From positions 1 to 31,981 of the IMG/VR virus record IMGVR_UViG_3300045999_005811: a stretch of DNA of 31,981 bases; one strand, given 5' to 3'. The position numbers and the translations under genes were made by a program. This document shows positions 3,202 to 31,367 of the stretch, one piece after another. The stretch is from a virus. Each line of letters opens with the position of its first letter. Position 1 is the stretch's first letter. Below the pieces are notes generated by a model that saw only the letters and a program-made list of their open reading frames with translations, ran no database searches and had not been told where the DNA came from.

Positions 3202-4041
3202 ATGCCACAAATCAATTTCAATGCCGCCTCCATCCCAGAGAACCGCAGCGCCATTCCATCCGGTGATTACATGGTTTGGATCAATGGATCCAAGCTTGTC
3301 TACGGAGACAGGGACGACCAGCAGCAGCAACAGCCCAATCCCAACGATCCAAAGCAGAGATTGGTCCTCAAAATCGAGATCCTGCAGCCGGAATCGGCGG
3401 CCGGTCAGAGCATCGAGGAAGGCTACTGGATGAAGCACCCCAACCCAAAGGCCGTGGAGGTTAGCAATCGCCTCCTGGCCAATGTCTGCAGGGCCGTGGG
3501 ACAGATGGCGCCGCACCAGTCCGAGCAGCTGCATCAGATCCCGTTTTGGGCCAGGCTGGACGTTAAGGAGCTCGACAGCGGGGCCCTGGTGAACGAGATT
3601 CGAGCAGTCTGGAGCACCCAGAGCCAGGCGCCGCCTTTGATGAAGGCGAGGGCCCAGAAGCCGCAGCAACAGGGCTTTGTGCCAGGTGCCAATGGTTTCA
3701 TGCCACCACCGCAGGCCCAGCAGCCGTGGCAGCAGGCACCACAGCAGGCCCCCATGGCACCGCAGCTGGGCCAGCCAGTGCAGCAGCCGCAGTACCAGGC
3801 CCCGATGGCTCAGCCGCTGCAACAGCACCCACCGCAGGGCTACCAGACCCAGTGGGCCCAGCAGCCTGGCCAGCCGCCGTTTCCTCCGCAGCAGTCATAC
3901 GAGCAGCCAGCTTCAGCAGCTGCACCAGGTCATCCACAGCAGGGAGGATTCAATCCGCCAGTGAAGCAGACCCCACCGCCGTGGGCCCAGGCTCCACAGC
4001 AGCAGCCTGGCCAGCTAGGGCAGAACGACATTCCATTCTAG
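3202..4041 (+). CDS. DUF669-type single-strand DNA-binding-like protein with SSB-type C-terminal tip
   Basis: The 279-residue product has an N-terminal domain (about 1-140) starting with a Phe/Asn-rich strand and P-S-G-D-Y, as in DUF669 proteins. A long Gln/Pro/Ala-rich, low-complexity linker (about 145-272) follows, and the protein ends N-D-I-P-F. Bacterial SSB proteins end D-D-I-P-F or similar, and that tip docks partner proteins. The layout of fold, disordered linker and tip is that of SSB. The likely role is to coat single strands and recruit the recombinase, helicase or host partners. AAGGA upstream supports the ATG. The OB fold is inferred from family and layout, not seen directly. Confidence 0.75.
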   Translation: MPQINFNAASIPENRSAIPSGDYMVWINGSKLVYGDRDDQQQQQPNPNDPKQRLVLKIEILQPESAAGQSIEEGYWMKHPNPKAVEVSNRLLANVCRAVGQMAPHQSEQLHQIPFWARLDVKELDSGALVNEIRAVWSTQSQAPPLMKARAQKPQQQGFVPGANGFMPPPQAQQPWQQAPQQAPMAPQLGQPVQQPQYQAPMAQPLQQHPPQGYQTQWAQQPGQPPFPPQQSYEQPASAAAPGHPQQGGFNPPVKQTPPPWAQAPQQQPGQLGQNDIPF

Positions 4042-11135: not shown

Positions 11136-12634
11136 GGTGCGCACGCGATGGTGAGGGTGATTGTGTTGGGTGCTGTTTTGTTGCTGGTTGGTACCGTGAC
11201 GTCGACCGGTGGTGCTGAATCGAGGCAGCATTCAGACCGCCAGATTTGGCACTTGTTGTCAGCCGCTCCTGGTGCTGATCCGGTGTCGCTGCATTGCGTC
11301 AACAGGCAGCCATCAAAGACAGCGGTGATATCTTGGGCAACCTCTGGAGTACCAACAAAATTGATCGAGTGAGCGCCACAAATGGCTGTGCAACTCTTGG
11401 TCAGCGTGCCAGCGTAGAAGGCTCGATATAGCAGGTAGGATCCACAGTCCTCATCGCATCGGGTCGGTTCCATCGCGTTGTTGATGAATTGCCCGTAGCC
11501 GTCAATGACTTCATGGTTGCAGAGAAAAACGGGATCGGTACCAGCAGCATTGAAGGCAGGCAGAACGCCAAACATTGGATCCCGTGAATTTGCCGTCTCA
11601 GTGCGAATCGGAAACGCGTTGAAATCACCCAGGATCTGCGGCTCGCCCCAGTAGTTGACGAAACAGAGAGGATCGCCGTACGGCTTGTCGTTCCACTGGG
11701 TATCGGACACCGTGCCGTCTGGATCGCAAAAGACATCGGGAAACCCGCAGCCTTCATTGAGGCAGTAGGTCGAGGTTGTCAGCTCGTTCCATGTTGGCGT
11801 TGCGTTGCACATCATGTAGCGATAGGAAATGAATTCCTCGTTTGTGGTGCCCAAAAATGGATAGCCGCGCTGGCAATGAAACTGGCCGTAAAAATCTTCG
11901 CCAGAAAGCTCGCCTCCGCAATCCTCAGTGGGAACCTGGCAATCGGAATCGAGCGAGCAATTTGAGTTGTAGTATGAGGTCAGTGAATAGCTTAGGTAAC
12001 GCTCGACGCTCCACCTGGTGTCTCTGGCGATCTTGTACTGAACGTCTTGATTGGCTCCGTTAATGACGAATCGCAGCTCAACGCTATACTCATCCCAGAC
12101 GCGAATTTTGACTTTCGCCGTCAGGTCGTCGAGCTTTTGCGTGAGGATCCAGTATTCATTGAACTGGCAAGGAAACCCAGGCTCACCGATGACTGGATCT
12201 GGATCGAGCTTGATCATCACCCCACACGGAACGCAAACGTCAGCAGGGGTCGGTGGTCCACCAGGACCGCCCCCACCTTCGCCACCACCACCAACTCCTG
12301 GACCGCCGCCACCACCTGGGCCTGGTGGCTCGGTGACGTTGCAGCATCCGTTCTGCTCGCCTGGCCGTGGTCCGTTTAGGAATCCTTGCCAGCAGTCACC
12401 GATCCTCCCGTCGTAGGCATGATCGATATAGTAGTCGAGGAGATCGTATTCCGTTTTGGCAGTGCAATGCGTAAGCAGCAGCAAGCAGCCTGGAATCGCG
12501 TTGATCGCTTTGTTGACCGACCAGGAAACGGTTTCGCTGCCCATCGTTACCGAGATGTTCGAAATGGTCTTAGTACACGGCGAGCATTCACCACCCGCAC
12601 AACACTGACAACCGGCTGCGTGTCTGTTTGGCAT
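11132..12634 (-). CDS. Large cysteine-rich protein with glycine-rich linker (probable distal tail or surface protein)
   Basis: A 500-residue protein with 33 cysteines by my count, many as C-C, C-x-x-C and C-x-C pairs near the N-terminus. A Gly/Pro low-complexity hinge covers about residues 103-129. The C-terminal part is rich in Asn, Asp, Tyr and Thr. Such a protein would be stabilised by disulfides or metal outside the cell. Position downstream of the tape measure and distal tail genes suggests a tail-tip or receptor-binding role (inference). I recognise no family. The start overlaps the upstream stop (TGATG). Confidence 0.65.
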   Translation of the reverse strand: MPNRHAAGCQCCAGGECSPCTKTISNISVTMGSETVSWSVNKAINAIPGCLLLLTHCTAKTEYDLLDYYIDHAYDGRIGDCWQGFLNGPRPGEQNGCCNVTEPPGPGGGGGPGVGGGGEGGGGPGGPPTPADVCVPCGVMIKLDPDPVIGEPGFPCQFNEYWILTQKLDDLTAKVKIRVWDEYSVELRFVINGANQDVQYKIARDTRWSVERYLSYSLTSYYNSNCSLDSDCQVPTEDCGGELSGEDFYGQFHCQRGYPFLGTTNEEFISYRYMMCNATPTWNELTTSTYCLNEGCGFPDVFCDPDGTVSDTQWNDKPYGDPLCFVNYWGEPQILGDFNAFPIRTETANSRDPMFGVLPAFNAAGTDPVFLCNHEVIDGYGQFINNAMEPTRCDEDCGSYLLYRAFYAGTLTKSCTAICGAHSINFVGTPEVAQDITAVFDGCLLTQCSDTGSAPGAADNKCQIWRSECCLDSAPPVDVTVPTSNKTAPNTITLTIACAP

Positions 12635-28572: not shown

Positions 28573-28792
28573 CGGGCTCACCGCTCTTTCTTTGCGCCAC
28601 TTCCTTGATCGAAATCCAAAGCCGTTCGCGATCCTCTCGGCATTCTTTGAGATCTGCCTTGATCGCCTCGGTGTTTGATTGCACCTGTTTGTAGAGGTGG
28701 ATCACAACGCCAGATAGGACGCTCAATCCACCCAGCAAGATGCCAACAAGGCTGGTGTCGACGGCAGCAATCAGGGTTGGCATCGTGATCAT
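28559..28792 (-). CDS. Single-TM protein with coiled coil, holin- or spanin-like
   Basis: A 77-residue protein with a hydrophobic segment at about residues 13-33 and a charged helix (I-K-A-D-L-K-E-C-R-E-D-R-E-R) after it. Its place directly after the peptidase gene suggests a role in lysis such as holin, antiholin or spanin. The start overlaps the upstream stop (ATGA). Confidence 0.6.
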   Translation of the reverse strand: MITMPTLIAAVDTSLVGILLGGLSVLSGVVIHLYKQVQSNTEAIKADLKECREDRERLWISIKEVAQRKSGEPDAKA

Positions 28793-29613
28793 GTAATCGC
28801 TCCAGGTGTGTCACCATCAGCAAAGTTGGTGGATCGGATCAGGTAAAAGGCGTGATATTCAATGGTCGTTTGCAAATGGCTTGCCCATGTGATCCAGTTG
28901 TGGCCGCGATCCCCAAACCCCAGGCCCCATGTGTTGGCCGATTCGAATTCATAGCCGCCGGACGGAGAGATCCGAATATCGTGGACCAGCACAGCATGAT
29001 TGCCCGGTCCCCTGGCTGGAGGGCTCACGCCTCGACCATCGAGTCGCCCATAGGACTGGGTGGCATGCACAGCAACCACGCCACAGAATCCAGCAGCCAA
29101 GCCGCTGGCTAGTTCGTCTTCGGTCTCGACGCGGTAGCATTCGTGGGCGCGGTTGCGCACCATCGAATTCACCGCCTCCCTGGAAAGCTGTCGCTGAGTC
29201 AGGAACTTGGCGAGCGGGACATATTGCTCCTCAGGCACTCCATTGTTTTTGAGGGCGTGCATGCCATCATCCAGCATGGAGCCCTGGTCCCTGCCTCCGT
29301 TAATCAGCGCGTAAAGACCTTCGCCAGATAGTCGGCGTCTCTTGATCCCGCGAGCCACCTGAGTCCGCTCGAGAGCGTGAGCAGCTGCTTGGCCGTTGCA
29401 GCTGCCGACGTTGCCTTGATTGCGGATCCATTCTTCCGGCCTGAACAGCCTAGAGCCTGCCACGCGCTTCGGATCGGTGACTATCTTGGCGATCTGGTCC
29501 CGGGTGAACATCGGCCCGTTGTCGCCGTACGTTGGAAATGTCTGCGGCTTGAATGACGGAAGCAGCAGGCCAGTCCCGAACTCCTGGCCGTCGACAATGA
29601 TGATCTCGCTCAT
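28789..29613 (-). CDS. Papain-fold (C1-type) cysteine peptidase, possible endolysin
   Basis: A 274-residue protein with all the papain-type landmarks: oxyanion Q66 and nucleophile C72 in W-I-R-N-Q-G-N-V-G-S-C-N-G-Q, H206 in G-N-H-A-V-L-V-H-D, and N227 in S-A-N-T-W-G, followed by a W-x-T-W strand. C1-fold enzymes cut peptide bonds; here, amid membrane and signal-anchor lysis genes, wall-peptide or host-envelope cleavage is likely. No muramidase or amidase gene was recognised, so this may be the main lysin. There is no clear signal peptide, so a holin would be needed. The start overlaps the upstream stop (ATGA). Confidence 0.78.
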   Translation of the reverse strand: MSEIIIVDGQEFGTGLLLPSFKPQTFPTYGDNGPMFTRDQIAKIVTDPKRVAGSRLFRPEEWIRNQGNVGSCNGQAAAHALERTQVARGIKRRRLSGEGLYALINGGRDQGSMLDDGMHALKNNGVPEEQYVPLAKFLTQRQLSREAVNSMVRNRAHECYRVETEDELASGLAAGFCGVVAVHATQSYGRLDGRGVSPPARGPGNHAVLVHDIRISPSGGYEFESANTWGLGFGDRGHNWITWASHLQTTIEYHAFYLIRSTNFADGDTPGAIT

Positions 29614-30301: not shown

Positions 30302-30578
30302 CGTTTTCCTCCTCCTGCCATGGCTCGCCGAGCTGCGGCTCGTCGGCTGGGTCGTCTTCCTTACGCTCTCGCCACCAGAGCCAAAGTTTGATCACCAGCT
30401 GAACCAGCATCAGGATGGTTGCAGGGTCAAGGCCGACAAGCTGCGGGTCGCTCTGGGCGAGAGTTTCGAATTCAACTTTGCAGCGCTCGACGTCGCGATA
30501 CTGTCGCCACAGCTGGGCAGCGAGCTGCCTCGCGCGTCGCTTGGCTCTGAGCCTTTCGAGTGGTCCATCCATGGTCAT
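30291..30578 (-). CDS. Small helical protein with amphipathic or membrane segment
   Basis: A 95-residue protein with a basic N-terminal helix (L-E-R-L-R-A-K-R-R-A-R-Q), a hydrophobic stretch near residues 57-72 (I-L-M-L-V-Q-L-V-I-K-L-W-L-W-W), and an acidic end. The start at 30578 is set by an ATGA overlap; the longer frame to 30716 is a shadow. Role in lysis is inferred from neighbours only. Confidence 0.55.
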   Translation of the reverse strand: MTMDGPLERLRAKRRARQLAAQLWRQYRDVERCKVEFETLAQSDPQLVGLDPATILMLVQLVIKLWLWWRERKEDDPADEPQLGEPWQEEENDVG

Positions 30579-30760
30579 CGCTCCGATGACCGGAGGGATT
30601 CGCCAACGATCCACGAGCCGACAAGCAGCACCACCTGGGTGATCTGCTCCTCGGTCAACGGGATGGCCATGGTCTCCTTCAGGATTACGACGGCCACGCC
30701 AGCGGCCGCGATCCAAAGCCGCCGAGATCGGAAAAGAGAATCCAGCTTGCCTCTCATCAT
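30575..30760 (-). CDS. Holin-like small membrane protein, first gene of the late operon
   Basis: A 61-residue protein: basic N-terminus (M-M-R-G-K-L-D-S-L-F-R-S-R-R), hydrophobic segment at about 15-27, then E-E-Q-I-T-Q and a second hydrophobic stretch V-V-L-L-V-G-S-W-I-V-G near 42-52, ending S-S-E-R. Two short membrane stretches and charged ends fit class II holins. GAGG six bases before the ATG at 30760 supports the start; the longer frame to 31228 passes through the tRNA-like region and is a shadow. It heads the late transcript. Confidence 0.6.
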   Translation of the reverse strand: MMRGKLDSLFRSRRLWIAAAGVAVVILKETMAIPLTEEQITQVVLLVGSWIVGESLRSSER

Positions 30761-30857
30761 GCTCGCCTCAGATTGGTGGTGGTTGGCAATGGTCCTTGAG
30801 AACGCCCCCAGTATACGGCCGCGGACAGGACAATCCAGAAATCGATCGGAATAAATC

Positions 30858-30875
30858 TTGTTTACACGTTTACAG
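30858..30875 (+). promoter_or_regulatory. Tandem GTTTACAC/GTTTACAG motif, copy 2
   Basis: The block matches 1561-1578 with one base change (C for T at the eighth unit base), in the same + orientation. It lies 18 bases before the tRNA-like element and about 100 bases upstream of the late operon start. It may be a shared operator or promoter element coordinating early and right-end transcription. Confidence 0.5.
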
Positions 30876-30893
30876 GCCGATACCATGGAGACT

Positions 30894-31001
30894 GGATCGG
30901 TAGTGTAGAGGAAACACGGGAGCATTCGGGGGACCGAGCCATTTGGATCAGCAATGAGCCGTGGTGTGTGTCTTATCGCAGGTTCGATTCCTGCCCGATC
31001 C
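30894..31001 (+). tRNA. tRNA-like element with a long insert in the anticodon region (identity unassigned)
   Basis: The acceptor stem is perfect over 7 bp (GGATCGG 30894-30900 with CCGATCC 30995-31001). T8 and A9 follow, then a D-arm GTGT-AGAGGAA-ACAC with A14, G15, G18-G19 and A21. The T-arm is GCAGG-TTCGATT-CCTGC. Between the D and T arms lie 60 bases instead of about 22. If a 5-base variable loop TTATC is assumed (C48 can pair G15), the anticodon stem GGAGC/GTGTC is poor (two Watson-Crick, two G-U, one mismatch) and about 37 bases are extra at the usual intron site 37/38; the anticodon would then read TCG (Arg). The middle also folds into two short GNRA-loop hairpins (30925-30938 and 30945-30960). 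No CCA is encoded. It could be an intron-bearing, degenerate or non-translating tRNA mimic. Confidence 0.5.
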
Positions 31002-31039
31002 TTTTGGTTTTTGGTTTTGATGGCGATGGAGTAGATGCG

Positions 31040-31147
31040 ATGTGTGATTTTCTCGATTGGCTTTGGCGGTGGCTCTTTCCTCCGAGCGACGAAGGAAGCG
31101 GAACGGGGAAAGAGTATCCGCCGACGGAGTACGATTTCTTCCCATAA
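31040..31147 (+). CDS. Candidate 35-residue Trp-rich peptide
   Basis: ATG at 31040 with GGAG eight bases upstream opens a 35-codon frame ending TAA at 31145-31147. The peptide has a Trp/Leu-rich amphipathic first half (F-L-D-W-L-W-R-W-L-F-P-P) and an acidic second half (E-Y-P-P-T-E-Y-D-F-F-P). It may sit on a membrane. The good ribosome site and distinct composition argue for coding; there is no family match to cite. Confidence 0.4.
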   Translation: MCDFLDWLWRWLFPPSDEGSGTGKEYPPTEYDFFP

Positions 31148-31367
31148 CGAGCTACCTGTTGGCGAGAGATGGAAGGGGATCGACATGGCTCTCTCGCCAG
31201 GGCTCCGGTCAGGTGCGTAGCCGGACAATAAACATGCGCATCAGCATCGGCCTGTGTAACTCTCCAACGCGAACGGGTGACGGTGCCAGGATGGTGGGAC
31301 ATGCCCCTAGGAGGATTCGAGGCCTCCCATCCTGCTGGCGAGACACGCCACACGAAGGGTAAACATC
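31148..31367 (+). promoter_or_regulatory. Leader region with structured hairpin before the right-end genes
   Basis: The 220 bases hold a hairpin at 31285-31339: GCCAG (31285-31289) pairs CTGGC (31335-31339) and GATGG (31290-31294) pairs CCATC (31327-31331), with a three-base bulge, and GAGG (31311-31314) pairs CCTC (31323-31326) inside. The helix ends about 28 bases before the next start codon. It may be a structured leader or attenuator. A 42-codon frame at 31234-31362 has no ribosome site and is not called. Confidence 0.4.

Follow-up and report, generated by a model that had tools for sequence, protein, structure and literature searches.

The tRNA-like element at positions 30894–31001 of the window (the whole stretch of DNA analysed here, a 31,981-bp IMG/VR virus record) is confirmed as real, and belongs to an apparently undescribed RNA family, spread over dozens of sequences from uncultured phages, whose members share a tRNA-like frame and have interchangeable middles. 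Sequence comparison demonstrates the predicted fold, the absence of an anticodon arm and the modular exchange of the centres. With about even confidence, we postulate that the family represents phage-encoded, non-decoding tRNA-like RNAs, which would be processed by the host and act in trans with an exchangeable central domain.

The 108-nt RNA lies on the plus strand and was assigned, with the Rfam tRNA model and with our model R3 (a covariance model of 11 type-2 members, window excluded), to the second of the two types described below. Its acceptor 5' strand, GGATCGG (30894–30900), is near-invariant in type 2 and forms 7 of 7 pairs with the 3' strand CCGATCC (30995–31001); the next base is T and CCA is not encoded, as is also the case for the real tRNAs of contig L092. 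T8 and A9 (30901–30902, read from the sequence) are followed by the D arm GTGT-AGAGGAA-ACAC (30903–30917; stem 30903–30906 with 30914–30917), the loop of which bears A14, G15, G18, G19 and A21. The T arm, GCAGG-TTCGATT-CCTGC (30978–30994; stem 30978–30982 with 30990–30994), is conserved in type 2. Between the two arms, a variable centre of exactly 60 nt (30918–30977), unalignable between type-2 variants, replaces the anticodon arm. It is predicted to form two hairpins with GNRA loops, TTCGG-GGGA-CCGAG (30925–30938) and GGATCA-GCAA-TGAGCC (30945–30960, with one internal mismatch); both come from a constrained fold, and the one homologue sharing this centre (L025) has an identical sequence. Thus, the element has the 7-bp acceptor stem and the D and T arms with conserved bases of a canonical tRNA, and lacks its anticodon arm (5-bp stem, 7-nt loop, U33 and purine 37).

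Under permissive covariance-model searching, the tRNA likeness that a sequence-only reading of this DNA had claimed held up: with lax filters, the Rfam tRNA model scored 41.0 bits over 30894–31002 (gathering cut-off 29; E 3.9e-7). ARAGORN, and Rfam at default filters and gathering cut-off, did not detect the element. R3 matched 30893–31002 with 47.4 bits (E 1.9e-9), and when we scanned for T arms with an acceptor stem stacked on them, the window gave two matches, whereas ten shuffled versions of it gave none. The folding energy is ordinary (z -0.59); hence, the support for the element is comparative, not thermodynamic.

The left part of the window carries exonuclease, helicase and primase genes on the plus strand, while tail, portal and other genes occupy the minus strand up to about 30.7 kb. 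The element lies in the divergent gap beyond these minus-strand genes, and rightward reading frames come after it. A long minus-strand frame (30575–31228) overlaps it; however, we do not regard the element as coding, because the homologues of this frame in the relatives L003 and L009 start at a methionine matching about position 30761. Upstream, a possible weak plus-strand promoter, TTGTTT-17-TACCAT (30858–30886), was recognized by eye and is conserved in L003, but did not pass a consensus promoter scan. Directly downstream, a candidate 35-aa ORF, MCDFLDWLWRWLFPPSDEGSGTGKEYPPTEYDFFP, is predicted on the same strand (31040–31147). No antisense match between the centre and the genome of the phage itself exceeded chance, the longest being 11 bases. 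Just to the left, the window encodes a papain-family (C1) cysteine protease (28789–29613). To the right, a second conserved noncoding stretch (31150–31350; GGCGAGA..CTCGCCAGGGCTCCGG..CCGGACAA..), common to the window and L003, has a counterpart in L085 at about 3260–3400, behind a type-1 element; it is probably another structured RNA. A possible second, smaller tRNA-like piece (31287–31334, plus strand), weak and known from the window and L003, would comprise a CAGGATGG:CCATCCTG stem, a small hairpin and a T-arm-like GGAGG-ATTCGAGG-CCTCC; in L003, the candidate piece at the same place contains one G-T pair.

Using the protease gene as a lead, we obtained nine relatives. One record (L002/L025) is identical to the window over the element region, and in L003 both flanks align with the window and the element is absent. 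L009 holds TCCCGCCTTGGTGTTAATCCAGGAAACACAGTCGGCAGCAATGCCGAAAATTGCGGGTTCAAATCCCGCAGGCGGGA behind a different small gene, with acceptor, D and T arms and with CGGCA-GCAA-TGCCG where the anticodon arm is expected. At the place of the L009 element, L006 (726–770) retains only a 5' half, namely the acceptor strand, the D arm and a CCAGCG-GCAG-CGCTGG hairpin, with no T arm. Hence, the element appears to be dispensable in some relatives. A 15-base pattern taken from the acceptor and D arm returned mostly unrelated contigs, which were retained as a background set; none of these unrelated viral contigs appeared in the R3 match list. Pattern scans of IMG/VR then yielded two kinds of relatives, often within one phage. 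All are metagenomic and mostly fragments; one dubious contig fitting the second pattern (L053) was left out. Since the searches relied on patterns, the family size is a lower bound and the uniformity of the D arm is partly a pattern effect.

The type-1 pattern, GTGT N{3,12} AGGAAACAC N{20,50} GGTTCRAWTCC, matched 23 viral contigs, where the matches sit in tRNA-like surroundings, none with a normal anticodon arm; in 84,980 prokaryote genomes, it gave two matches, neither tRNA-like. Leaving the D stem free brought in extra members with the stems GATT/AGTC (L051) and GTTT/AAAC (L054). Many type-1 elements have an 8-bp acceptor, short hairpins stand for the anticodon arm, and the acceptor stems covary freely. 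Across 15 distinct sequences, 88.6% of 255 cells over the acceptor, D and T stems are paired, with compensatory changes at all 8 acceptor pairs, and none of 500 shuffles was as good. The D-arm and T-loop conservation of type 1 is biased, since both are part of the search pattern, which left the outer pairs of the T stem and the whole acceptor stem free. In seven contigs (L028, L030, L034, L039, L048, L050 and L055), a conserved 33-aa membrane-protein-like ORF (e.g., MEKEIDWDRWPVTEVVLVVSVFLAVMVMLWLVG) begins 13–16 nt past the type-1 element.

The type-2 pattern, GGATCRGCGGCGTGG N{60,90} AGGTTCRAWTCCT, matched 24 stretches of viral contigs and had no match in a sample of 289 Verrucomicrobiota genomes. 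Here, the GGATCRG acceptor, the D arm and the T arm are almost fixed, and about ten distinct centres of about 45–85 nt, unalignable with one another, are mounted on this near-constant scaffold. Over 15 sequences, 96.5% of scaffold cells are paired; double changes are few but real (for example, C-G replaces G-C at the first acceptor pair, and A-U replaces G-C at the sixth). Compensatory changes in the scaffold were thus seen in both types, whereas the sequence-only reading had named a lack of covariation as a sign of a decayed remnant. The window element fits the type-2 signature in its acceptor and T arm, whereas the other type-2 members have CG at 8–9 and the D arm GCGTG-GTGGGAA-CACGC; as its TA at 8–9 and its GTGT..ACAC D arm are closer to those of type 1, the element seems to stand between the two types. 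In several type-2 centres, folding places a first predicted hairpin at the position of the anticodon arm and a second beside the T arm, like a long variable arm. One centre hairpin varies in step among a few sequences (L094 GTGGC-GACG-GCCAC, L047 GTAGC-GACG-GCTAC, L109 GTAGT-GACG-GCTAC).

We searched all these elements for an anticodon arm, defined as a 5-bp stem (four pairs being enough) at about the normal position, closed by a 7-nt loop with U33 and a purine at 37. None of 34 elements (16 type-1 and 18 type-2) had a canonical arm; of 7 ordinary tRNAs, mostly taken from those contigs, 6 did. These results support the earlier idea of a tRNA mimic that lacks an anticodon arm, on a scaffold conserved with compensatory changes: the acceptor, D and T arms with their conserved bases and the missing normal anticodon arm all stood, whereas the option of an insert of about 37 nt at the intron site found no support. 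The element's length would permit a tRNA with such an intron, spliced to give a normal anticodon arm. However, the shortest type-1 relatives (about 71–77 nt) have no insert, only a hairpin such as that of L009, and still lack an anticodon; type 2 exchanges the whole centre, with no constant anticodon-arm halves, and no self-splicing intron family was matched in Rfam. Hence, we regard the intron explanation as very improbable.

Decay of ordinary phage tRNAs, which once decoded and are now losing parts, also has to be considered. Real tRNAs occur on some of the contigs (L092 with Met and Asn, L054, L033), and one element is visibly derived from a tRNA-Asn: the L104 element at 12080–12149 has the D-arm stretch AAGTTATYGCGGTGGAACGCC in common with the tRNA-Asn of L092 (511–582) and carries CCTAG-CTAG-CTAGG in the anticodon-arm position, a comparison in which a direct transition from a tRNA can be seen. 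The half element of L006 would fit such decay as well. Nevertheless, the acceptor and T stems are intact, all 8 acceptor pairs show compensatory changes, near-identical elements occur in different contexts and the same arm is lost in all members, which makes decay improbable. The base after the acceptor varies (A in 12, T in 5, G in 1), and since it is not fixed, aminoacylation is unlikely as a common feature or purpose.

Some contigs hold further odd tRNA-like pieces (L085 870–916 and 1770–1832; L103 8206–8255; L113, G025 35041–35152), among them minimal forms made up of an acceptor, one small hairpin and a T arm; another piece lacks the anticodon arm, whereas its D arm looks normal. Between tRNA-like elements, L084 (4775–4860) and L112 (about 1006–1090) have in common a conserved segment, AGGGATGCAAACGCCT..GAGGTTGCGGTGAGATYCCGC, with a T-loop-like hairpin. 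In three phages, the motif GACAGCCGGAGAGACGGCAA recurs immediately ahead of an element or a gene (L084 at about 5350, L092 at about 485, and L093 on the minus strand).

The elements appear, from sequence comparison, to behave as modular RNA cassettes. Type-2 pairs with the same centre are 87–99% identical over the element, while the 100 nt on each side are mostly 44–56% identical, which is the level of shuffled controls (exceptions are L100/L105 and, more weakly, L093/L096). Since elements with shared centres are alike but their flanks are near random, the RNA seems to be the unit that moves. Conversely, in G015 (L111, L116, L049) GGAGACT before and TTTTGGTTTTTGGTTTTGATGGCGATGGAG after the element are both identical to the window, and the element itself combines the window's acceptor with another D arm and a longer centre, indicating that the centre was exchanged within the scaffold. 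L085 488–605 (in G012, L038/L085) has the window's acceptor and T arm with a different centre. According to the sequence-only reading, relatives holding only scrambled sequence at this place would have marked a decayed remnant, but L003 simply lacks the element and G015 keeps flanks and acceptor around another centre. That shared centres are so alike may, however, be due to recent transfer and not to any constraint acting on them.

Another candidate explanation is an attachment site, at which the phage would integrate by means of a duplicated host tRNA gene end: the T arm and 3' acceptor strand of our elements resemble tRNA 3' ends, as do many attP sites. However, the elements possess a D arm and both acceptor strands, and there are several per phage; G019 (L084), for example, has one type-1 and three type-2-like elements in tandem within about 640 nt. 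In addition, no tyrosine integrase (PF00589) was found in 10 possibly incomplete records, which likewise speaks against an attachment site; we consider this explanation very unlikely.

In the reading as non-decoding RNAs acting in trans, the acceptor, D and T arms form, as the comparison shows, a tRNA-like upper half holding the exchangeable central domain. The L104 element, with the D arm of a tRNA-Asn and another hairpin instead of the anticodon arm, also speaks for this reading. We suggest that transcription would either include the rightward genes or begin near the first base of the RNA. RNase P, RNase Z and the CCA-adding enzyme recognise the acceptor stem and the T/D elbow, not the anticodon; from this known behaviour, host tRNA-processing enzymes would be expected to make the RNA ends, and such RNAs to be excised and stable. 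The stable product may then bind a host factor recognising the upper half of tRNA, with the central domain setting the particular partner of each RNA, and its likeliest job would be to counter, as a decoy, sponge or scaffold, a host factor that binds or attacks tRNAs.

The main competing explanation is a role in cis, in which the elements would punctuate polycistronic phage messages as RNase P/RNase Z cut sites that separate the messages, and everything outside the acceptor, T and D arms, being of no importance, would drift. Many elements start a few nucleotides past a stop codon and have a ribosome-binding site a short distance downstream (in many type-1 elements, the stop codon is on the same strand and 2–15 nt away, and an SD+ATG is often present within about 10–40 nt of the element's end), a placement that a cis role explains as well. 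Neither would punctuation need an anticodon arm, and the minimal forms L085 870–916 and L103 8206–8255 resemble minimal RNase P substrates. On the other hand, the four tandem elements of G019 would be redundant as cutting sites, shared centres are preserved at 81–99% identity within unrelated flanks, and in L093 and L096 a promoter-like site (TTGACA-16-TAGAGT/TAGACT) ends 7 nt before acceptor base 1; these three observations lead us to favour a role in trans. Moreover, a cutting site would not require the near-invariant acceptor sequence of type 2. We therefore consider punctuation a possible but clearly less probable reading than action in trans.

By analogy with laboratory tRNA-scaffold expression cassettes, we tentatively speculate, with less than even confidence, that one host-matured tRNA scaffold might present interchangeable central domains to different partners and so constitute a new class of phage non-coding RNA. 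Decoding is the usual explanation for the tRNAs of phages; a family keeping all but the decoding part would mean that the tRNA fold serves phages for something else. In the literature searched, we found no report of anticodon-less phage tRNAs. Most of the family is missed by standard annotation, as ARAGORN gives nothing or a false anticodon. When elements of both types were compared by BLAST with 50,697 annotated phages, a search that would miss distant members, the matches were only short pieces, mostly of ordinary tRNAs; five of the places were inspected as family candidates and none belongs to it. Two unannotated stretches in named phages may be mentioned here, a tRNA-like gene of Streptomyces phage Heather (L060 2441–2528; Rfam tRNA 51.5 bits) with an enlarged anticodon-arm region, and a tRNA- or tmRNA-like stretch of Vibrio phage Va1 (L059 2448–2532) that ends in CCA and scores 22.3 bits with the tmRNA model, below gathering.

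Among known RNAs, the family resembles canonical tRNA (RF00005) in the acceptor, D arm, T arm and conserved bases, but differs in having neither an anticodon arm nor a fixed discriminator base, so it cannot decode, and in the 108-nt length of the window element. The tRNA-like domain of tmRNA is likewise a tRNA upper half without the anticodon half; however, no tmRNA match was obtained in the window region (Rfam, E up to 10), and an unsystematic look at the centres noticed no tag reading frame. Bacterial Y RNAs (YrlA) offer another case of non-decoding tRNA mimicry, YrlA carrying a Ro/Rsr-binding module; in the window region, Rfam gave no family besides tRNA above chance. The tRNAOther of Bacillus cereus is described as tRNA-like and inactive in translation, with a phenotype upon deletion (PMC3399842); it differs from our family in being chromosomal and single.

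The nearest precedent is species 1 RNA of phage T4 (rnaC, 139 nt), a phage-encoded stable RNA that lies next to tRNA genes. Its ends are acceptor-like, its T arm reads CCGGG-TTCGAAT-CCCGG, and its large centre lacks an anticodon arm. Its match to R3 is marginal (19.4 bits, E 0.017; 18 bits with model R2), its acceptor is less regular and its centre is another one; to our knowledge, no arrays with exchanged centres are known for it. Species 1 RNA is expressed as a late RNA and, although described decades ago, is still without known function (PMC9697503). With dozens of members showing covariation and exchangeable centres, the family described here makes the question of that function testable.
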